Source: Tepidanaerobacteraceae bacterium
Lineage (GTDB): Bacteria; Bacillota; Thermosediminibacteria; Thermosediminibacterales; Thermosediminibacteraceae
Direction of reading: 5' to 3'
DNA length: 41,228 nt
Assembly (NCBI GenBank): GCA_030446005.1
Contig: JASUSP010000012.1
Span: forward strand, 1-41,228
The notes beneath the pieces are model-generated. The model ran no database searches and had not been told where the DNA came from. It worked only from the letters and a program-made list of their open reading frames with translations. Positions 415 to 32,536 of this stretch are shown one piece after another. Numbering within the stretch: position 1 is the stretch's first letter; the number at the start of each line of letters is the position of its first letter. The translations under genes and the position numbers were made by a program.

Positions 415-3400
415 ATGCTTTTGAAGCATATAAAGCCTTTAAAAGCATTTATTATAGTGTTTTCCATAATATGTTTGGTGTTTCATGGATTGCCCGCTCC
501 GCGGACACTTGCTGCTATTCCTTCCGTTACGGAGATTAGTCCGGCGGAAGGCTCAGCGGCTGGAGGTACACAGGTAACCATAAAGGGTTCGAATTTTGCT
601 CCGGCAGATAAGATTAAGGTCCTGTTCGGCGGTGCCGAAGGAAAAGTGGTGTCGGTAAATTCAGAGGGCACCGTGATAACGGTTATAACTCCTCCGTATC
701 CGCAGCTAGGACCGGTCAACGTGACCGTTAAGAACTCGGAAAGCGAAATCGAAATCGTGCCCAACAGCTTTACGTATAAGCAGAGCTCGCCGGTTATAAC
801 TAACGTGTCCCCGCTTACCGGCACCGCAGGTACCGAGATAACCATAACGGGCAATGAGTTCATGAAGGATATCGACTCAAACAAAAAATTGCTGGTGCTG
901 ATAGGCGGCATACTTTCTTCGAAAGTTACGTTCGTAAGCTCCACTACCATTAAGGCTGTGGTTCCTGCCCAGATATCGGGATACAAGGAGATTAGGGTTG
1001 AAAACCCGGATGGCGGAAGCTATACCTATTTCCCCGCGGAGGACAGCAAAAAATTCTTCTACCAAAAGAGCACCCCTACCATTACCAGCGTGGACCCCAA
1101 CAAGGGGCCGATAAATACGGCAACCCCCATTACGATAAAAGGGACCAATTTCATTGCCGGCAATTATCCCAATACTTCAACGCCTATCACTACAGTTACA
1201 ATAGGGGGCCAGCCCGCCACCGACGTTCAGGTGGTCAATGAAAACACGATAATCGCCAAAACCCCATCCAACATATCCACCACCGGTCCGCAACACGTCA
1301 TAGTTACTGTAGACGGCGTTAGCGCCATAAAGGAAAACGGCTTTACCTTCATTTCAAACCCGGTCATAACTTCGGTAAGTCCTTCTCAGGGCAGCGTTCT
1401 CGGCGGAATGGAGGTTACCATAACAGGGTCTGGCTTCATGAGCGGAGCCCAGGTAAAGTTCGGCGGACTTTTGGCAAAGGACGTTTCTGTTAAAAGCAGC
1501 AGCGTGATAACCGCAAAGGTGCCCCAAACATCCACGCCCGGTTCCGTGACTGTGACGGTGACGAATTCGGACGGAGGCACGGCGGTATTGGAGGGTGGAT
1601 TTACTTATACTCAAAGCGTGCCTTCGATATTTTCCATTTCAAACACTTTAAGCGGCACGGGGCCTGCAAAAAGCAGCGTCCTGGGGGGAGAAACTATATA
1701 CATAAAGGGATTGGGGTTCGGTTCCGACGGTTTTCCTAACGAAGTTAGCGTATACATAAATGGCAAGCTCGCAAGCAATGTAGTGCTAACTAAGACCCCG
1801 GAGCAGGACATAATCTCTGCCGTAACGCCTCCAAGCAGTTCGGAGGGATTGGCGGTTGTGGAAGTAGTGAACAAGGACGGCGGCAGGGCAAAGAACAACA
1901 ATGACGACCCGAATACCCGATTCGAATACGTAAGGAGCAAGCCCTCGATTGAAAGCTTTACTCCCGAAAAATCGACCACAACGAAGCAGGAAACCATCAC
2001 CATTAACGGTCAAAACTTCATGGATGGCGCGAAGGTCTATTTCGGCAGCATTGAGGCCAAGGATATTACGGTATCCCCGGACGGGCAGAAAATAACGGCG
2101 ACTATACCGGAAGCAGCAAGCTCCGGGACCGTGGACCTTAAGGTGGTAAATCCCGATCAGGGAAGTGCTGTTGCCGAAAAAAAATTTGTATTTGAAAAAA
2201 GTAATCCGCAAATAGATTCGGTATCCAACCTCGAAATAGAATCTCTTACGGGGGAAAAAGTAAATACGGGGAGCACTGCCGGTGGAACTCCCATATGGAT
2301 AGCAGGAAGGGATTTTTCGAATTACGCACAGGTTACGATAGGAGGAAGGCCTGCCACCGGCGTTAAAGTAACAAAGCAAAGTCCCGATTTGCACGTAATA
2401 GAAGCGGTGGCTCCGGCAAACGATGTTGGTGAAAAGGTAATTACTGTGAAAAACCCCGATGGCTCAAGTGCACAGGCTACCTTCCGGTACGTGGTAGCCC
2501 CGACCATTATTGGAATTACCCCGAATACCGGAACGACGGAAGGGGGTACTACCGTTGTCATCGACGGTACGGGCTTTGCGGCAGACCCGGAAAAGGTGTG
2601 GGTTTTCTTTGGAGGAGCTAAGGCCACGGTGGAGTCCGCTTCCTCCACCCGGTTAGTCGTCAGGACCCCGGCCAATTCGGAAGGGGCAAAAGACGTTGTA
2701 GTTATAAACCTCACCGATTACGGAAGCTACGTGAAAAAGTCGGGCTTCACCTACGTGCTGCCCCCCAGCCGTCCCGTCATTGAAAGCATAGAGCCCTCCT
2801 CCGGCTCCACCGCGGGAGGAACCGAAATAAAAGTAATAGGCACAGATATAAGAAGCGGCGCCAAGCTCTATATCGGTGGGAAGCTTGCGACGGTGACGGG
2901 CGTCGAAGTGGTGGAAATCGGCGGTGTGTACAAGAGCGTGCTCACTGCTACTACACCTCCCGGAAATGCCGGAGAACAGGAAGTAAAGGTAGTAAATCCG
3001 GATGGCAATTTCGCCATTTCGCCAAAACCCTTCACCTACAAGATACCCGAAAAAGCCCTCGCCATTACCAGCATTACGCCAAACAAAGGGTCCGTGCAGG
3101 GCGGTACTCAGGTTACGGTGAAGGGTGCAAACTTCGTAAAGAAAACCTTTCTTTCAGGTTCGATATACCGGGAAACCCGTCTTACAATAGGGGGCAACAA
3201 TGCAACCGATGTAGTGGTGAGCGATGACCTGACAACCCTTACTGCCATTACTCCGGGAGGAAGTTTAGGAGCTCAGGATGTCATAGTAAAGGTGGTAAAG
3301 GTGGATGATACCACCGGAGAGGAAATCGAAGTAGAAAGTCAGGCAATTTTGAAAGGAGGCTTCACTTACGAGCTTCCCAAGAGCAACCCAGAAATCTTCA

Positions 3401-6400
3401 ACGTCCGCGTATATAACCCGAAAACTCAAAAAGAGGAAGATCCCATAGGTCCAACCTCTGGCGGAAGCATCGTGAGGATCTATGGAAGCGACTTCATCGC
3501 CTCATCCGGCGGGAAGGTGCTGGAAGTCTATTTTGGAACCAAAAAAGCTCCCATAGCCGAAGTGATCCATTCGGGGCTTATCGAGGCCATAACTCCATCT
3601 ACAACCCAGGTGGGAGCGGTGGACGTTAAGGTCGTAAATCCCGACGGTGCGGAGGCGGTGCTGTGGGGAGGTTTCATATACAAGGGAAATAACCTCGTCA
3701 TAACTTCCATAACGCCCAACAGCGCCCCGGTGACGGGAGGGATAGAAGCAACAATTTTTGGTGCCAACTTCATCCAGGGAACTCAGGTGACTATAGGCGG
3801 TGAAGCAGCTTACAATATAGTTGTCGAAGATTCTACAAAAATTACCCTTACGGTGCCCCCAAATACCCCGGGAATTAAGGATGTGGTGGTTCAGAACGCT
3901 TACGGCAGCGCAACTTTAAAGGGTGGTTTTCAATACTATGTGGAGCAAAGCAGACCTTCAATATCTTCGGTAAGCCCAAGCCAGGGCAGCGCCGCCGGAG
4001 GCGAGGACATTACCGTTAAAGGAGAAAACTTCATGAGCGGAGCTCGAGTCCTGGTAGGGGGAAAGGATGCCAATAATGTTGTGGTAAAAAGCACGATGGA
4101 GATCGTGGCAAAAACTCCACCCGGTACTCCCGGGGTTTGCGATGTGGAGGTTCTCAACCCCGATGGAGGGAAAGCCGTCCTTCCCGAAAGCTTCTTGTAC
4201 ATCAGCAATCCGGTCATAGAATCGGTTACCCCTGCGAAGGGCCCCGCAACGGGCGGTATACTTGTGGAAATCAGGGGCAGGAACTTCGAGGAAGGGGCGG
4301 TTGTGCGCTTTACCCACGCCGGTGGGAGCCTTCCGCTGGATGATGTGAAAATTATAAGCGGTACCGTCATAAAGGCGAAGGTGCCGCAGGCACCGGAGGG
4401 CTTTACGGGCTACGTGGACCTGGAAGTTATAAACCCCGACGGCGGAAGGGGAGTGAAGCAGAAGGCTTACCTTTATAAAACCACCTATACCGAGCCGAAA
4501 ATCTTTACGGTAACGCCCAACAGGGGGCCAGTGCAGGGTGGAACGGAAATCACCATAAAAGGCGAGGATTTCCAGAGCGATGCCCTGGTGGTAATAGGAG
4601 ACTCCTTTGCCGCCGATGTGAAGTACATCGATAACACCACCCTGACTGCTAAAACCCCGCCGGGCAGGGAAGGCAGCGTTGACGTGCAGGTTATAAATCC
4701 TTCGGACGGAGGATTTGCCGTAAAATCGGGAGGTTTTACCTACACCGTTCCGAGGAGCAGCCCTACGATAGCCAAGGTTGCCCCCTCTACGGGAAGCTCC
4801 GAAGGCGGAACTCCGGTAACGATTACGGGCAGTGACTTTAGGGAGGGTGTTTCCGTCATAATAGGCGGTGTGGAAGTGCCTAAAGAGGATGTTAACCTGA
4901 TAAGCCCAACGGAGATAAGGGTGGTGACTCCGAGGGCTGTAAGTTACGGCAAAAAGGACGTGGTGGTGGTCAACGAAGACGGAGGTTCCTATACTTTGAA
5001 AAACGGTTTCGAGTACGTGCCCCCTGCAACACTACCGATAATAAAGAGCGTGGACCCCTTGCATGGAACCATATACGGCGGAACTCTCGTTAAAATAACG
5101 GGCGTCAGGTTTTCAAAAGGGGCAAAAGTGTACTTCGGCGGAGTGGAATCCCCGGAGGTCACGGTGGATGATACAGGTACCCTAGCCGTAGCCGTAACAC
5201 CCCCGTACACCACCGGCAGTGCCGACATCCCGGTAGACGGAAAGTACCCGGTAAAAGTGGTGCTCGTAAATCCCGATGGCGGTCTTGCTGTTTTCGACGG
5301 CAATTTCGAATTCAGCATCCCCCAAAGCAGCCCCAAGATAATAGGCATAGCTCCGCCTAAAGGCCCCTTTTCGGGAGGCAATTTGGTGACCGTAGAGGGT
5401 ATGGACTTCCGGCCCGGAGCGAAGGTATTGTTCGGAACGGCTGAGGCGGTGGTGGAAAAGATTGAGGATGACCAGGGGCGTTCTCCGGATGAGGACGGTT
5501 TCGTTTCGGGTACGAAGATATCCGTTACCGTGCCTGCCGGTACGCCGGGCAAAGTGGACGTAAGAGTCGTAAACCCCGACGGGGGTCTTGCGCTCCTGAA
5601 GACAGGCTACGAATATTTAAACGTCACGGGAACGATCGAGCTGGAGTTCATAAACCCCACGGAGGGAGCCATATCCGGAGGAACTCCCTTCACCATCAAG
5701 GGAAGGGGCTTTGTGAACCCGGTTACCGTTTACTTCGGCGGAGAAGAGGCTGAAGGGGTAGTGGCGGTGGATTCTAACACTATCACCGGCAGGACTCCAC
5801 CAAATACGCCCGGCAAAAAGGATGTGGTAGTGCTAACCGGAAACGGCCTTTCCGCGACCATAAAAGACGGGTTTGAATACAAGGTCCCCGAAAAATACCC
5901 GCGCATAATGCAAGTTCAGCCCAACCGGGGTCCCGCCTACGGTGGGATAAAAGTCGATATATTCGGGGAAAACTTCCAAAGCAATGCAAAGGTATACATA
6001 GGAGAAAATCAGGCAGAAGTTATTTGGGCAGAACAGAATAAGATAACCGTTATTCTTCCCGAGGGAACATTAGGCACCAAGGACGTGATTGTGATAAATC
6101 CGGATACGGGACTTGATGTGCTGGAAGAAGGCTTTACCTATGTGGACTTTCCCAGGATAGAAAAAGTGGAACCCTCCGAAGGTCCTGTGGATGGTGGGAC
6201 CGAAATCACCATTACCGGCCAGCTTTTCAAGAAGGGTGCCGTCGTGCTAATCGGCGGGAAGTCTGCGACCGGAGTTACCGTCATAAGTGAAAATACCATA
6301 AAGGCAAAGACGCCGCCCCATTCTGCAGGCTACAAAGACGTGACCGTAATAAATCCGGACGGCGCAGAGGCGACCTTAAAGGACGGTTTCTATTATAAGC

Positions 6401-7284
6401 CGCCGAGAACGAAACCTGACGTGCCCGAAGATTTCTCGGCAAGGCGAATCGACGAAACCGCCGTATTGCTGACGTGGTCTTCATCGCTCAATGCCAATTA
6501 TTACGAAATCTACGGTTCTACGAAAGCTAGCGGTCCTTTTAAGTACATAGATAAGACCGTAGGTACGAGCTACATCGTAACCAGCCTGGAGCCCGACACC
6601 GGATATTACTTCAGGATAAGGGCGGCAAATGAGCTCGGGTTTTCCGATTACACCTATGCCGATTACGTCCGCACCGCCGATGGCGAAGTTGAAAAGCTGA
6701 TAGAATTGCCTGCGGATATCGTGGTGGATACCACAGGAAAAAGGGCTTCGGTCATAGTCAAAGACGCGGATTACCTGAAAAAGAAAGATTACCGCGTTAC
6801 CGTAAAGTCGAAAAAAACCCCTCCGTACAGGGAATATTCAGCGGTTTTGCCCTACGAAGTTTTGTCCAAAACATCTTCTCTGACCCTTGTTTTCGATGAA
6901 GTAAGCATTAAAGTAGCCCCTTCATCCCTATCGATTCCGGCTTTCAATAACCTGACCGCAGCGGAGGAAAAGGATGCGGCCCTGATAATAACCGTAAAAA
7001 GAGCCGGAGGAGCGGTCCTGGAAGAGATTTTGAAGTTTAAGGAAACCGGTATGAAAAAACTTGGAGATATCGTTAAGGTGGAATTTTCATACAAAGTGGG
7101 TAAAAAGAGCGGGAATCCCGATAGCTTAAGTGCGTGGCTTTTCATCGAAAGCGGCTCCGGCGAAACTTATTCCGGCAGTATACGGAGTCTAAACCTTTAC
7201 CGCTACGACCCCGAAATAAGAAAGTGGAAGGAATCCGGAGGATACATTTCGCTTCCGGGATGGTACGGGGTTTTCGGAAGGTGA
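415..7284 (+). CDS. Giant secreted IPT/TIG-repeat protein with fibronectin III domain
   Basis: 2289 residues. The N-terminus is a signal peptide (basic MLLKHIKPLK, a hydrophobic core, probable cleavage near LAA). About 21 IPT/TIG immunoglobulin-like repeats of roughly 80-100 residues follow. Each opens with a pattern like I-x-S-V-x-P-x-x-G, then GGT-x-V-T-I-x-G-x-x-F, and ends near VVNPDGG...GGF-x-Y. The repeats fill residues ~35-2000. A fibronectin type III domain follows (starts PDVPEDFSARR, contains LTWSSS and YYFRIRAANELG), then a C-terminal region of ~230 residues I do not recognise. There is no SLH, LPXTG or membrane anchor. The start ATG has the RBS GAGGTGG. It heads an operon with two SLH proteins. 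IPT repeats are common in adhesins and surface or carbohydrate-associated proteins; an extracellular stalk or adhesin role is inferred, with no ligand known. Confidence 0.88.
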   Translation: MLLKHIKPLKAFIIVFSIICLVFHGLPAPRTLAAIPSVTEISPAEGSAAGGTQVTIKGSNFAPADKIKVLFGGAEGKVVSVNSEGTVITVITPPYPQLGPVNVTVKNSESEIEIVPNSFTYKQSSPVITNVSPLTGTAGTEITITGNEFMKDIDSNKKLLVLIGGILSSKVTFVSSTTIKAVVPAQISGYKEIRVENPDGGSYTYFPAEDSKKFFYQKSTPTITSVDPNKGPINTATPITIKGTNFIAGNYPNTSTPITTVTIGGQPATDVQVVNENTIIAKTPSNISTTGPQHVIVTVDGVSAIKENGFTFISNPVITSVSPSQGSVLGGMEVTITGSGFMSGAQVKFGGLLAKDVSVKSSSVITAKVPQTSTPGSVTVTVTNSDGGTAVLEGGFTYTQSVPSIFSISNTLSGTGPAKSSVLGGETIYIKGLGFGSDGFPNEVSVYINGKLASNVVLTKTPEQDIISAVTPPSSSEGLAVVEVVNKDGGRAKNNNDDPNTRFEYVRSKPSIESFTPEKSTTTKQETITINGQNFMDGAKVYFGSIEAKDITVSPDGQKITATIPEAASSGTVDLKVVNPDQGSAVAEKKFVFEKSNPQIDSVSNLEIESLTGEKVNTGSTAGGTPIWIAGRDFSNYAQVTIGGRPATGVKVTKQSPDLHVIEAVAPANDVGEKVITVKNPDGSSAQATFRYVVAPTIIGITPNTGTTEGGTTVVIDGTGFAADPEKVWVFFGGAKATVESASSTRLVVRTPANSEGAKDVVVINLTDYGSYVKKSGFTYVLPPSRPVIESIEPSSGSTAGGTEIKVIGTDIRSGAKLYIGGKLATVTGVEVVEIGGVYKSVLTATTPPGNAGEQEVKVVNPDGNFAISPKPFTYKIPEKALAITSITPNKGSVQGGTQVTVKGANFVKKTFLSGSIYRETRLTIGGNNATDVVVSDDLTTLTAITPGGSLGAQDVIVKVVKVDDTTGEEIEVESQAILKGGFTYELPKSNPEIFNVRVYNPKTQKEEDPIGPTSGGSIVRIYGSDFIASSGGKVLEVYFGTKKAPIAEVIHSGLIEAITPSTTQVGAVDVKVVNPDGAEAVLWGGFIYKGNNLVITSITPNSAPVTGGIEATIFGANFIQGTQVTIGGEAAYNIVVEDSTKITLTVPPNTPGIKDVVVQNAYGSATLKGGFQYYVEQSRPSISSVSPSQGSAAGGEDITVKGENFMSGARVLVGGKDANNVVVKSTMEIVAKTPPGTPGVCDVEVLNPDGGKAVLPESFLYISNPVIESVTPAKGPATGGILVEIRGRNFEEGAVVRFTHAGGSLPLDDVKIISGTVIKAKVPQAPEGFTGYVDLEVINPDGGRGVKQKAYLYKTTYTEPKIFTVTPNRGPVQGGTEITIKGEDFQSDALVVIGDSFAADVKYIDNTTLTAKTPPGREGSVDVQVINPSDGGFAVKSGGFTYTVPRSSPTIAKVAPSTGSSEGGTPVTITGSDFREGVSVIIGGVEVPKEDVNLISPTEIRVVTPRAVSYGKKDVVVVNEDGGSYTLKNGFEYVPPATLPIIKSVDPLHGTIYGGTLVKITGVRFSKGAKVYFGGVESPEVTVDDTGTLAVAVTPPYTTGSADIPVDGKYPVKVVLVNPDGGLAVFDGNFEFSIPQSSPKIIGIAPPKGPFSGGNLVTVEGMDFRPGAKVLFGTAEAVVEKIEDDQGRSPDEDGFVSGTKISVTVPAGTPGKVDVRVVNPDGGLALLKTGYEYLNVTGTIELEFINPTEGAISGGTPFTIKGRGFVNPVTVYFGGEEAEGVVAVDSNTITGRTPPNTPGKKDVVVLTGNGLSATIKDGFEYKVPEKYPRIMQVQPNRGPAYGGIKVDIFGENFQSNAKVYIGENQAEVIWAEQNKITVILPEGTLGTKDVIVINPDTGLDVLEEGFTYVDFPRIEKVEPSEGPVDGGTEITITGQLFKKGAVVLIGGKSATGVTVISENTIKAKTPPHSAGYKDVTVINPDGAEATLKDGFYYKPPRTKPDVPEDFSARRIDETAVLLTWSSSLNANYYEIYGSTKASGPFKYIDKTVGTSYIVTSLEPDTGYYFRIRAANELGFSDYTYADYVRTADGEVEKLIELPADIVVDTTGKRASVIVKDADYLKKKDYRVTVKSKKTPPYREYSAVLPYEVLSKTSSLTLVFDEVSIKVAPSSLSIPAFNNLTAAEEKDAALIITVKRAGGAVLEEILKFKETGMKKLGDIVKVEFSYKVGKKSGNPDSLSAWLFIESGSGETYSGSIRSLNLYRYDPEIRKWKESGGYISLPGWYGVFGR

Positions 7285-28467: not shown

Positions 28468-28582
28468 CTCTTATCTGCCAGAACGTAACGTTCTGCTGGA
28501 ATTAGCACCGCTGCAACTGCCCTTGCAGTTGCCGGTTGCCGGGTTTCATCGGGCCAGTCCCTCCACCTGCTCTCGATAAGAG
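28468..28582 (-). ncRNA. SAM-I riboswitch (S-box) aptamer
   Basis: Read on the minus strand, CTCTTATC (28582-28575) and GATAAGAG (28475-28468) form P1. Conserved core sequences between them are AGAGCAGGTGGAGGGACTGG, CCGATGAAACCCGGCAACC, and GGTGCTAATTCCAGCAGAAC. These are the standard S-box signatures: kink-turn region, pseudoknot loop and P3/J3-4 elements. SAM binding stabilises P1 and allows the terminator to form, shutting off metNIQ and the racemase-family gene. Confidence 0.97.
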
Positions 28583-28666: not shown

Positions 28667-29575
28667 CTAAATTAAACCCTTTTCCTTGAGGAACTCTTCG
28701 GCTACCTGGGAAGGTTCTTTTCCTTCGCCGTCCACCCGGTAGTTGAGCTGCTGCATCTCTTCGTCGGAAATTTGGCCCGCGAGCTTATTGAGCACCTCTT
28801 TAAGCTGCGGATATTTTTCAAGCACGTCCTGCCTTATGAGCACTGCGGCGTGATAGGGCGGAAAAAAGTGCTTGTCGTCCTCAAGGATTTTAAGATTGTA
28901 GCGCACCAGAAGACCGTCGGTAGCAAAGGCGTCGATTACCTGGACTTCATTGTTGGCTATAGCCTGATATCTTAGTCCCACATCCATGGACTTGGTATCC
29001 TTAAAGTTAAAACCATATACTTTCTTCAAGCCCGGGTATCCATCGGGCCTTTCGAGAAATTCCATAGTAGCGCCCAATATAAGACTGTCGCTTATTTTCG
29101 CCAGGTCCGAGAAGGTTTGAAGGCCATGCTCTTGGGCAAACTCCTTTTTTACGGCGAGAGTATAGGTGTTGTTGAATCCCAGGGGTTTCAACCACACCAA
29201 GTTCCAGCGCTTTTTGAATTCTTCCGAGACTATCCTGTAGGCTTCGTCGGGGTCTGTGATGGATTCCATGCCGAGCAGGTTCACAAGGCCCGTGCCGGTG
29301 TATTCCACGTAGGTGTCGATACCCCCGTTTTTTCCTCCGCGCTTTAAGGCCTCAAAGCACACGCTGGTACCTCCGAGCCCCGTTTTTAGTTCCACGTTCA
29401 GGTTGGTATGGGCCTTTATCATCTCCGCCACTATGTTGGCCATTATAACCTGTTCGGTAAAGTTTTTAGAGCCAATCACTATGGTGTCCTGAGCCTTCTT
29501 TTCTCCCAGACTGCATCCTGCTGCTATAGTCAGGACCAAAAGCGATGAAAGAAAAATCGCGAGTTTCTTTTTCAA
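28667..29575 (-). CDS. opuCC: Osmoprotectant (glycine betaine/choline-type) ABC substrate-binding lipoprotein
   Basis: 302 residues of the OpuC/OsmF group. A lipoprotein signal ends AAGC with Cys21. The mature protein opens [21 protein letters not shown], the hallmark of quaternary-amine binding proteins. [15 protein letters not shown] and [14 protein letters not shown] follow, along with [14 protein letters not shown] in the second lobe. It captures betaine-, choline- or carnitine-like solutes. Third gene of the opuC operon, 14 bases after the permease gene. No terminator was seen after it before the met promoter. Confidence 0.92.
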
Positions 29576-29589
29576 CCTAAACTCCTCCT

Positions 29590-30240
29590 TTACAATTTTA
29601 TTCCTTTCGGCATTACCTTCCTTTCCAGGAAGAAGAAGACCCTATCTATTAAAAGGGCCAGTATCATAGCCGGTACAGCACCCGCCAAAATTAGCTTGGT
29701 GTTTACCATGGATATCCCGCGGTATATGAGCTGTCCCAGACCTCCCGCGCCTATGAGGGCAGCCAGGGTAGTATACCCCACGGCCATTACCGCCGCAATT
29801 CGGATTCCTGCCATGATTACGGGGAGGGCAAGAGGTATCCTCACCATAGTCATCAGCTGGAATTCGGTCATCCCCATGCCGATGCCCGCTTCAATTATGG
29901 CCCTGTCTATGCTGGTAAGGCCGGTGTAGGTGTTTTTTATAATTGGAAGCAGTGCATAAACTATTACCATTACAATTGAGGGAGTGGAGCCGATTCCCAA
30001 AAGAGGCACCATAAAACCCATGAGGGCAAGGCTGGGCATGGCCTGGACGGCGTTGGCCACCCCCAGGATAAAAGGCGACATTCCGGGAATCATAGTCATG
30101 ATTATTCCCATGGGAACACCTATGGATATGGCGATGAGAATTGCCATGAAGGAAAGCTGCAGGTGCTGGCCGGAAAAAAGCAGGATGTCGTCCATGCGCT
30201 GCACAATGAAATTTATATATTCGCTTACCATCCGAATCAC
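29590..30240 (-). CDS. opuCB: Osmoprotectant ABC transporter permease
   Basis: 216 residues with five to six membrane helices and the ABC permease docking segment [54 protein letters not shown] is broken into helices typical of the OpuCB/OpuCD family. Many OpuC systems carry two different permeases; only one gene is present here, so the channel is probably a homodimer. It starts 9 bases after the ATPase gene ends. Confidence 0.92.
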
Positions 30241-30249
30241 CCTTTTTTA

Positions 30250-31359
30250 TTATTCTAAGCTTTCCCCCAGCAGATTCACCAGAGTGCTGCGGGTAACCAG
30301 CCCTTTTAAAATGTTGTTCTCGTCCACTACTGGCACGTATCCAATCCTCTTTTGCGACATGAGTTTTAAAACGTCTAGAACCGAATCCTCGGGCCTTACC
30401 GTAAAAAGATTTCTGGTATAGATTTCTTCCAACTTCCTGGCTTTATCCTTATTCTGCCGTATGTTTTCCGCCGTCACTATTCCCAAAAGGCGGTTTTCAT
30501 TGTCTACCACCAGGACGCTGTCCACGCCGCTTTCGGTCATAATTTCAACAGCCTGGGTTAAAGTCCTTGACGGCAGGGCTTTTACGGGATTGGTTATCAT
30601 GACATCCTTTACTGACATAAGTTCCGGCTGCTTCCATAGACGTTTCTTTCCGATGAGATTTTCCACGAATTCGTTGGCGGGGTTTTTAAGGATTTCTTCA
30701 GGAGTATCGAACTGGACGACCTTCCCTTCCTTCATGATGCATATACGGTCCGCCAGCTTTAAAGCTTCGTCGATGTCGTGCGTTACGAACACGATGGTCT
30801 TTTTTAGCTTTTCTTGGAGTTCGTAAAGTTCGTCCTGTAACTGGGTCCGAGCTATTGGATCGATGGCGCTAAAGGGTTCATCCATAAGGATTATTTCTGG
30901 GTCTGCTGCCAAGGCCCTTGCGACGCCTACCCGCTGCCTTTGACCGCCGGAGAGTTCCAAAGGAAATCTGTTGATGAACTGTTCGGGCGGCATACCCACC
31001 AGCATCAAAAGTTCCTCAACCCTCTTTAGCCTTTTTTCCCTGGGCCATTTTTTTAAAAGCGGCACCAGCTCTATGTTCTGCCTTACCGTCATGTGGGGAA
31101 AAAGGCCTATCTGCTGGATTACATAACCGATATTGCGGCGAAGTTCTATTGGGTCTTTTTTGGATATATCCTCACCGTCTATAAAAATTGTTCCCGATGA
31201 TGGTTCGACGAGTCTGTTTATCATTTTCAGGCAGGTGGTCTTGCCGCATCCGCTCGGGCCTATGAGAACCACGAATTCGCCGTCATTTATCTCGAGATTT
31301 ACCCCACTTATGACTTCGGTTTCTCCGTATTTCTTGGTAATGTTATCGAACTTTATCAA
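30250..31359 (-). CDS. opuCA: Osmoprotectant ABC transporter ATPase with CBS pair
   Basis: 369 residues from a TTG start at 31359, eight bases after the AAAAAGGGGGG ribosome site; the frame is open upstream, but that part coincides with the promoter/operator. The ABC domain has Walker A GPSGCGKTT, signature LSGGQRQR, Walker B IILMDEPFSAID and H-loop FVTHDIDEAL. Residues ~255-369 form two CBS motifs (TQAVEIMTESGVDSVLVVD and SVLDVLKLMSQKRIGYVPVVD). In Listeria and Staphylococcus OpuCA, the CBS pair binds c-di-AMP and lowers uptake. It is first in the transporter operon, directly behind a BusR-type regulator gene. Confidence 0.93.
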   Translation of the reverse strand: MIKFDNITKKYGETEVISGVNLEINDGEFVVLIGPSGCGKTTCLKMINRLVEPSSGTIFIDGEDISKKDPIELRRNIGYVIQQIGLFPHMTVRQNIELVPLLKKWPREKRLKRVEELLMLVGMPPEQFINRFPLELSGGQRQRVGVARALAADPEIILMDEPFSAIDPIARTQLQDELYELQEKLKKTIVFVTHDIDEALKLADRICIMKEGKVVQFDTPEEILKNPANEFVENLIGKKRLWKQPELMSVKDVMITNPVKALPSRTLTQAVEIMTESGVDSVLVVDNENRLLGIVTAENIRQNKDKARKLEEIYTRNLFTVRPEDSVLDVLKLMSQKRIGYVPVVDENNILKGLVTRSTLVNLLGESLE

Positions 31360-31383
31360 GACCGTCACCCCCCTTTTTGCAAG

Positions 31384-31415
31384 TGACAACTTAGATTATA
31401 TCATTAGAGTTGTCA
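31384..31415. promoter_or_regulatory. Bipartite operator, probable BusR-type binding site
   Basis: A perfect inverted repeat: TGACAACT at 31384-31391 and AGTTGTCA at 31408-31415. Counting the inner half-sites as TGACA and TGTCA, exactly 22 bases separate them (31389-31410). BusR of Streptococcus agalactiae is known to recognise a bipartite motif separated by 22 bp through a coiled-coil ruler. The repeat spans the -10 of the opuCA promoter, so binding would block RNA polymerase. Confidence 0.8.
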
Positions 31416-31424
31416 TTTTGGCAA
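31395..31424 (-). promoter_or_regulatory. Sigma-A promoter of the opuC operon
   Basis: Minus strand: TTGCCA (31424-31419), an 18-base spacer, then perfect TATAAT (31400-31395). The -10 box lies between the two operator arms. It is about 36 bases upstream of the opuCA start. Confidence 0.82.
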
Positions 31425-32358: not shown

Positions 32359-32536
32359 ATGGAACTTTTGCCCATTGGAAAGATTCACAGCCCATACCGA
32401 ACGGTGAAGGAAGCACCGCGCCAGGGGCGTCCATAAGACCAGAACGCCCTTTGGACCGGAAATCCGGAGAGTTTTTGCCTGCCGATCTCCAGCACGGCCT
32501 AATCTAATTTGGTTTATAAAAAAACAAAAAGGATGA
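32359..32536 (+). pseudogene. Remnant of a TrmO/TsaA-family tRNA methyltransferase gene
   Basis: ATG 32359 follows AAAGGG and encodes MELLPIGKIHSPYRTVKEA then PRQGRP before TAA at 32434. That is the N-terminus of the TrmO/TsaA (UPF0066) family, which adds a methyl group to t6A37 of tRNA-Thr using SAM. The +1 frame from 32429 to the TGA at 32536 encodes RTPFGPEIRRVFACRSPARPN, matching the family's conserved GVFATRSPxRPNPIG motif. About 50 residues between the two blocks, and the whole C-terminus, are missing. The gene has thus lost an internal segment with a frame change and its 3' part. It lies in the leader of the ABC operon, 6 bases from the next start. A riboswitch was considered but the protein match is much better. 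Confidence 0.8.

Follow-up and report, generated by a model that had tools for sequence, protein, structure and literature searches.

Known BusR systems and the opuC locus

BusR, its mechanism and the c-di-AMP-dependent osmoregulation in which it takes part are known from streptococci and lactococci. A BusR/c-di-AMP osmoregulatory circuit acting on BusAA-AB is reportedly also present in the spore-forming anaerobe Clostridioides difficile, where Oberkampf et al. are said to have described it in 2022. A paper citing Oberkampf et al. 2022 confirms c-di-AMP-dependent osmotolerance in C. difficile, and the presence of BusR homologues in Clostridium was pointed out in 2018 (PMC6108528). The OpuC importers of Listeria (5KS7) and Staphylococcus aureus are controlled at the level of the transporter protein, with c-di-AMP inhibiting through the tandem CBS domains of OpuCA; the CBS domain of Listeria OpuCA has been reported to bind c-di-AMP.

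The locus described here lies in a 41,228-nucleotide stretch of DNA (the window) from a heat-loving, spore-forming relative of Thermosediminibacter. On its minus strand, busR (32054-31434) is followed by a short gap harbouring a promoter and an inverted repeat, and then by opuCA, a permease gene and a substrate-binding protein gene (Table 1). By sequence the last three encode an OpuC importer, comprising a ProV-type ATPase with CBS domains, a permease and an OpuAC-type binding protein. OpuCA was assigned to the proV subfamily TIGR01186 (457.6 bits against a cut-off of 326.6), with ABC_tran and two CBS domains in Pfam, and its CBS portion matched Listeria OpuCA 5ks7 (E 3.8e-17). Directly downstream of opuC is a methionine-importer-like operon (MetN with a NIL domain, a permease and an NlpA lipoprotein), just ahead of which a SAM riboswitch was identified (RF00162, 88.8 bits, 28468-28582, minus strand). 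The plus strand of the window also encodes a 2289-aa protein (415-7284) with at least 16 IPT/TIG repeats and a 25-codon remnant, MELLPIGKIHSPYRTVKEAPRQGRP followed by a stop codon (32359-32436), which lies ahead of genes of the FecCD-type ABC importer and FmdE/zinc-finger kinds; the remnant resembles the start of a TrmO-like protein.

Table 1. Coordinates of the features of the busR-opuC locus in the window
Feature	Position	Strand	Remarks
Putative operator	31384..31415, imperfectly extended to 31381-31418	.	GAC-N24-GTC; kept in relatives
Promoter-upstream half-site	31408..31415	-	TGACAACT on coding strand; within -35/-10 spacer
Promoter-downstream half-site	31384..31391	-	AGTTGTCA on coding strand; at the transcription start expected from the -10
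-35 element TTGCCA	31419..31424	-	Promoter scan
-10 element TATAAT	31395..31400	-	18-bp spacer; position inside operator retained in relatives
RBS-like GGGGGG run	31368..31373	-	8 bases ahead of TTG start; sequence
busR, 206 aa	31434..32054	-	GntR 9-71, coiled-coil helix ~74-129, RCK_C/TrkA_C 134-201
opuCA, ABC ATPase with tandem CBS	30250..31359	-	TTG start 31359 inferred from relatives
Importer permease, OpuCB/ProW type, single permease gene	29590..30240	-	BPD_transp_1 6e-21
Importer substrate-binding lipoprotein, OpuCC type	28667..29575	-	OpuAC PF04069 3.2e-72

The repeat, which lies upstream of opuCA and about 19 bp from the busR stop codon on the same strand, was recovered by an inverted-repeat search as TGACAACT-N16-AGTTGTCA (31384-31415). 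Its 8-bp arms are perfect, as the original prediction had it, and 11-bp arms at 91% (31381-31391 and 31408-31418) extend it imperfectly. The prediction had also placed the repeat over the -10 of a good promoter for an osmolyte importer, and this held: the best promoter of the region, TTGCCA-N18-TATAAT on the minus strand (11 of 12 matches), has its -10 between the repeat arms and the opuC-type operon downstream. When up to three mismatches in 16 were allowed, two matches were found in the window against 0.04 expected from shuffles. The genome-wide search for TGACA-N22-TGTCA that had been suggested alongside returned the window's own site as the sole exact match in the 1.9-Mb, 83% complete genome, with none for the reversed-pattern control. 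All remaining matches carried three mismatches and occurred at six places, near the control level of three, which leaves a single operon as the visible regulon of this genome.

With the BusR-busA (opuA) systems of S. agalactiae and L. lactis (7B5T, 7B5U, 7OZ3) the locus shares a regulator architecture free of indels, clade membership, W159 and the PGP motif (residues numbered as in S. agalactiae BusR), GAC/GTC half-sites, an operator over an osmolyte-importer promoter and c-di-AMP enzymes in the genome. It differs from them in having GAC-N24-GTC rather than N22, half-sites extended inward (ACAACT), one visible operator instead of two, a three-gene OpuC-type operon in place of busAA-busAB, and the substitutions N157K, H160E and F182H. 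The best explanation of the operator, its geometry, the regulator family, and their conservation and association is, with a probability of about 0.77, that a BusR orthologue would bind a single operator on the opuC promoter and repress it in a c-di-AMP-dependent manner.

The regulator and its signal

A BusR-like gene of GntR-coiled-coil-RCK_C architecture had been proposed immediately upstream, and Pfam searches (GntR 3e-13, TrkA_C 2.6e-16), an ungapped alignment to S. agalactiae BusR 7b5t over residues 2-204 (E 7e-39) and phylogeny all agreed with this assignment. A tree was built from 96 proteins; its 23 Trp159 sequences, including that of the window, all fell on one side of a branch supported at 100/100, and this 23-row W-type clade also holds the BusR proteins of S. 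agalactiae and S. mutans (the 7wjg chain), with long branches flagged by the tool for SAG and others. In the AlphaFold model, helix 74-129 joins the GntR and RCK_C domains; a fold search with this model retrieved 7b5t, 7b5y and 7oz3 as top matches (7b5t E 7.7e-19), and its RCK_C domain lay at 1.5-1.9 A to c-di-AMP-bound 7b5u. The low full-chain TM-score may stem from how the domains are oriented in the monomer model, which was built from only four sequences. The coiled-coil ‘ruler’ spans 57 residues in both the window and S. agalactiae proteins, with no indel. At the DNA-contact positions Y13, K36, R38, R53, K54, G70 and G72 the window protein has Y, Y, R, R, R, G and G, position 36 being variable across the family. 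Among the autoinhibition and ligand residues, W159, A164, T165 and P179-G180-P181 are kept; in the autoinhibition patch (W159, P181 and F/Y182) only the third position is changed, F182 being H in the window. Judged by its sequence, the regulator is a true BusR.

The diadenylate cyclase gene that was to be looked for is present as cdaA within cdaA-ybbR-glmM, and the genome further encodes a 7TM-HD (PgpH-type) phosphodiesterase and a c-di-AMP riboswitch. At L201 1722-2729 the riboswitch precedes a D-Ala-D-Ala-ligase-like ATP-grasp gene, not a potassium transporter. The polar rim of the S. agalactiae c-di-AMP pocket is altered in the window protein and four close relatives, N157 being replaced by K and H160 by E. 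Since both positions vary in further members of the BusR clade, with Q, H, E or D at 160, the altered rim is best read as a caution regarding the ligand, neither as its exclusion nor as a defining criterion of BusR. The same substitutions would suit a BusR that represses opuC via this operator in response to another signal, either ionic strength, on which DNA binding by L. lactis BusR also depends (PMC10243994), or a different RCK_C ligand. We consider this unlikely, as the hydrophobic pocket, W159 and PGP are retained, the pocket contacts in 7b5u are mostly hydrophobic or made to the backbone, and the genome possesses the c-di-AMP enzymes and riboswitch described above. c-di-AMP is hence regarded as the likely ligand of the window BusR.

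A shared operator in Clostridia

As the window's class contains only 26 genomes, the phylum was sampled, and up to ~10 kb were fetched around 99 further BusR-like genes from a 398-genome phylum sample and the window's class; a contig search with the window BusR alone had given just three close relatives. Across these ~100 loci, TGACA-N22-TGTCA without mismatch was restricted to the window and two close relatives, a scarcity that led to the search yielding the shared core ACAAC[TC]-N14-16-[AG]GTTGT, most commonly as GAC-N23-GTC. The exact core was found at d = 14, 15 and 16 (corresponding to GAC-N22, N23 and N24) in 7, 18 and 3 loci, respectively (28 counts), against 0.29 loci per other spacing. 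A second peak of the core scan, at N22, was rejected, since it consisted mostly of these very sites counted with a 7-bp offset.

A site with at most one mismatch adjoined the gene in 15 of 21 BusR-clade loci, and in six relatives (L111, L112, L114, L115, L116 and L118) opuC is preceded by the same operator at the corresponding position. The layout is alike in the window and in Enterococcus, with the upstream half-site in the spacer, the -10 inside the repeat and the downstream half-site after it. In G023, busR and opuC occupy separate contigs; opuC keeps an N24 operator, GTGACAACC-N16-AGTTGTCAC, no operator site was found in the 3' flank of busR in this draft assembly, and an insertion or rearrangement between the two could account for the split. 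At L117, opuCA and opuCB have been lost and no site is present, whilst the close relative L118 has both. Of eight relatives of the window's family, five have both BusR and OpuCA and three have neither, G019, G021 and G025 lacking BusR as well as any close OpuCA.

The strict site ACAACTN{14,16}AGTTGTNA occurred in 41 of 96 genomes with a BusR-like gene, so that more than half of these are without one, compared with 44 of 302 genomes lacking the gene (Fisher p=4.4e-8, relatedness ignored); with the same half-sites at a control spacing of N18-20, the counts were 14/96 and 39/302 (p=0.73). The 44 sites in genomes with no detected BusR-like gene might suggest that the palindrome belongs to another regulator and that the busR neighbourhood is incidental, though the control spacing turned up in almost as many such genomes (39). 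This is very unlikely given that the link with BusR-like genes is confined to the N14-16 spacing, that the sites adjoin busR in most BusR-clade loci and that the Enterococcus busR-busA promoters share the layout.

An inverted repeat in a short gap between two same-strand genes could also act as RNA, either as a terminator or attenuator of busR read-through or as a 5' hairpin of the opuC mRNA. This is scarcely credible: the arms are AT-rich, the loop has 16 bases, no T run follows, no terminator was called, and the promoter -10 lies inside the repeat. Since the expected transcript begins inside the second arm, opuC mRNA could not fold into the hairpin. A chance palindrome, conceivable in that short inverted repeats are many in any 9 kb, has a negligible probability given the 0.04 matches expected in the window, and is refuted by conservation at the same place throughout the family. 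The evidence supports reading the repeat as an operator of the family rather than a coincidental palindrome.

Variant arrangements were also encountered. Three loci (L106, L107 and L108) encode 132-aa GntR plus coiled-coil proteins without RCK_C, beside a betaine-type ABC operon and with a one-mismatch N16 (GAC-N24-GTC) site 438-524 from the regulator start; these proteins are possibly a ligand-free version of the switch. Tandem operator pairs occur in L182 (2461-2514), before an amino-acid-type binding protein, and in L124 (719 and 753 from the regulator start), before a DapB gene.

Operator spacing and the molecular ruler

The BusR element has been defined as 5'-GAC-N22-GTC-3' in four measured sites, and binding was abolished by spacing changes of +5 and of -10 bp (Bandera et al., PMC8517857). 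In Enterococcus, two busR-busA promoters match AAGTGAC-N22-GTCACTT, preceded by TTGACA. The original prediction saw exactly this 22-bp separation in the window. By the published GAC/GTC definition the distance is 24, TGACA-N22-TGTCA being GAC-N24-GTC; the apparent agreement arose because the count had been made between other bases, namely TGACA and TGTCA. The window operator exceeds all measured BusR sites by 2 bp, computed to amount to a twist of ~69 degrees and a length of 6.8 A, which a coiled coil of equal length would have to absorb.

Members of the BusR clade have GAC/GTC spacings of 22, 23 or 24, with N24 in the window, L111, L114 and L205 and N23 in L112. The L112 BusR is 83% identical to that of the window and has no linker change, yet its operator is N23 rather than N24, indicating that the spacing drifts by single base pairs whilst the ruler stays. 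Coiled-coil length and operator spacing showed no covariation, N22, N23 and N24 all being accompanied by 57 residues. It would appear from these comparisons that GAC and GTC may lie anywhere from 22 to 24 bp apart in the family without a change in the coiled coil, and that exact spacing is a variable rather than a defining feature of BusR.

Likely targets of BusR and its sister group

The genes downstream of the sites were mostly osmolyte genes. Across the ~100 clostridial loci, core sites were found on the promoters of OpuC, BusAB-like, ProU-like and BCCT importers, including sites, some beside busR-like genes and some elsewhere, upstream of ProV/OpuCA ATPases (L181, L183, L194), OpuAC-type binding proteins (L130, L198, L129) and a BCCT betaine transporter (L195). 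Other sites stood upstream of genes for the synthesis of osmolytes, beta-glutamate, N-acetyl-beta-lysine and sucrose being compatible solutes: at glutamate 2,3-aminomutase in L102 and, divergently, in L049 (both above the NCBIfam cut-off), at lysine 2,3-aminomutase in L187 (above cut-off) and L188 (by Pfam), and in L105 at a GT4 glycosyltransferase gene, behind which lies a sucrose-phosphate-phosphatase-like gene, GT4 being found in L190 as well. Less clear targets were citrate synthase, an amino-acid binding protein and DapB.

The R-type sister group, which makes up 73 of the 96 tree rows and mostly has Arg at 159, consists of GntR-RCK_C regulators with the same domains as the window BusR and the same operator core, at N14-15. 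They differ from BusR in having R rather than W at 159 in most members, in mostly lacking PGP and in a coiled coil that aligned one residue shorter, and their targets include the aminomutases. Since most synthesis targets were found in genomes with an R-type regulator, c-di-AMP control of synthesis is put forward as a hypothesis. A large R-type subclade (L041, L069, L079 and other f31 loci) consistently stands before a gene of ~800 aa, which in L041 encodes a class A penicillin-binding protein; the operator core was not found near those f31 loci.

Slightly better than even, in our estimation, is a broader reading in which the clostridial BusR superfamily (BusR proper and R-type) would govern a joint osmolyte regulon through ACAAC[TC]-N14-16-[AG]GTTGT. 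Its uptake arm would comprise OpuC, BusAB, ProU and BCCT, and its synthesis arm beta-glutamate (glutamate 2,3-aminomutase), N-acetyl-beta-lysine (AblA) and possibly sucrose; the ruler would accommodate 22-24 bp while the coiled coil stays the same, and the published N22 rule would not be general.

Proposed mechanism and significance

For the window itself, BusR with c-di-AMP most likely represses opuC. If it acts like its S. agalactiae counterpart, BusR would as a dumbbell-shaped tetramer contact both half-sites simultaneously, the upstream one in the -35/-10 spacer and the downstream one at the transcription start with the -10 between them, and would so block RNA polymerase. Binding of c-di-AMP in the RCK_C dimer would free the winged helices and favour DNA binding, such that opuC would be off when c-di-AMP is high, at low external osmolarity and high turgor, and on after an osmotic upshift. 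The OpuCA CBS domains might add direct inhibition of the transporter. Such two-level control, by BusR on transcription and by CBS on activity, is plausible given the c-di-AMP enzymes and riboswitch and the match of the CBS domains to Listeria OpuCA. In Listeria and S. aureus control acts on the transporter protein, to which transcriptional control by BusR is here proposed as an addition.

The original prediction regarded both the host and the target as new. A BusR circuit in a spore-former is not, C. difficile reportedly having BusR and c-di-AMP osmoregulation with BusAA-AB as the target there; OpuC as target in place of BusA does look new against the open-access literature searched. No report of BusR at opuC or at aminomutase genes was found in the open-access literature, which is weak evidence of absence. 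BusR at an opuC promoter, the clostridial core with its 22-24 bp tolerance, and compatible-solute synthesis genes as likely targets all appear to be new.

Until now OpuC has been known as a protein on which c-di-AMP acts directly; here its transcription is placed under proposed control by a BusR with a definable operator, and the family-wide motif can be used for regulon prediction in Clostridia. The natural N22, N23 and N24 operators, found even between regulators that are 83% identical, make the molecular-ruler model directly testable. The findings also point to c-di-AMP-type control of compatible-solute synthesis as well as uptake.
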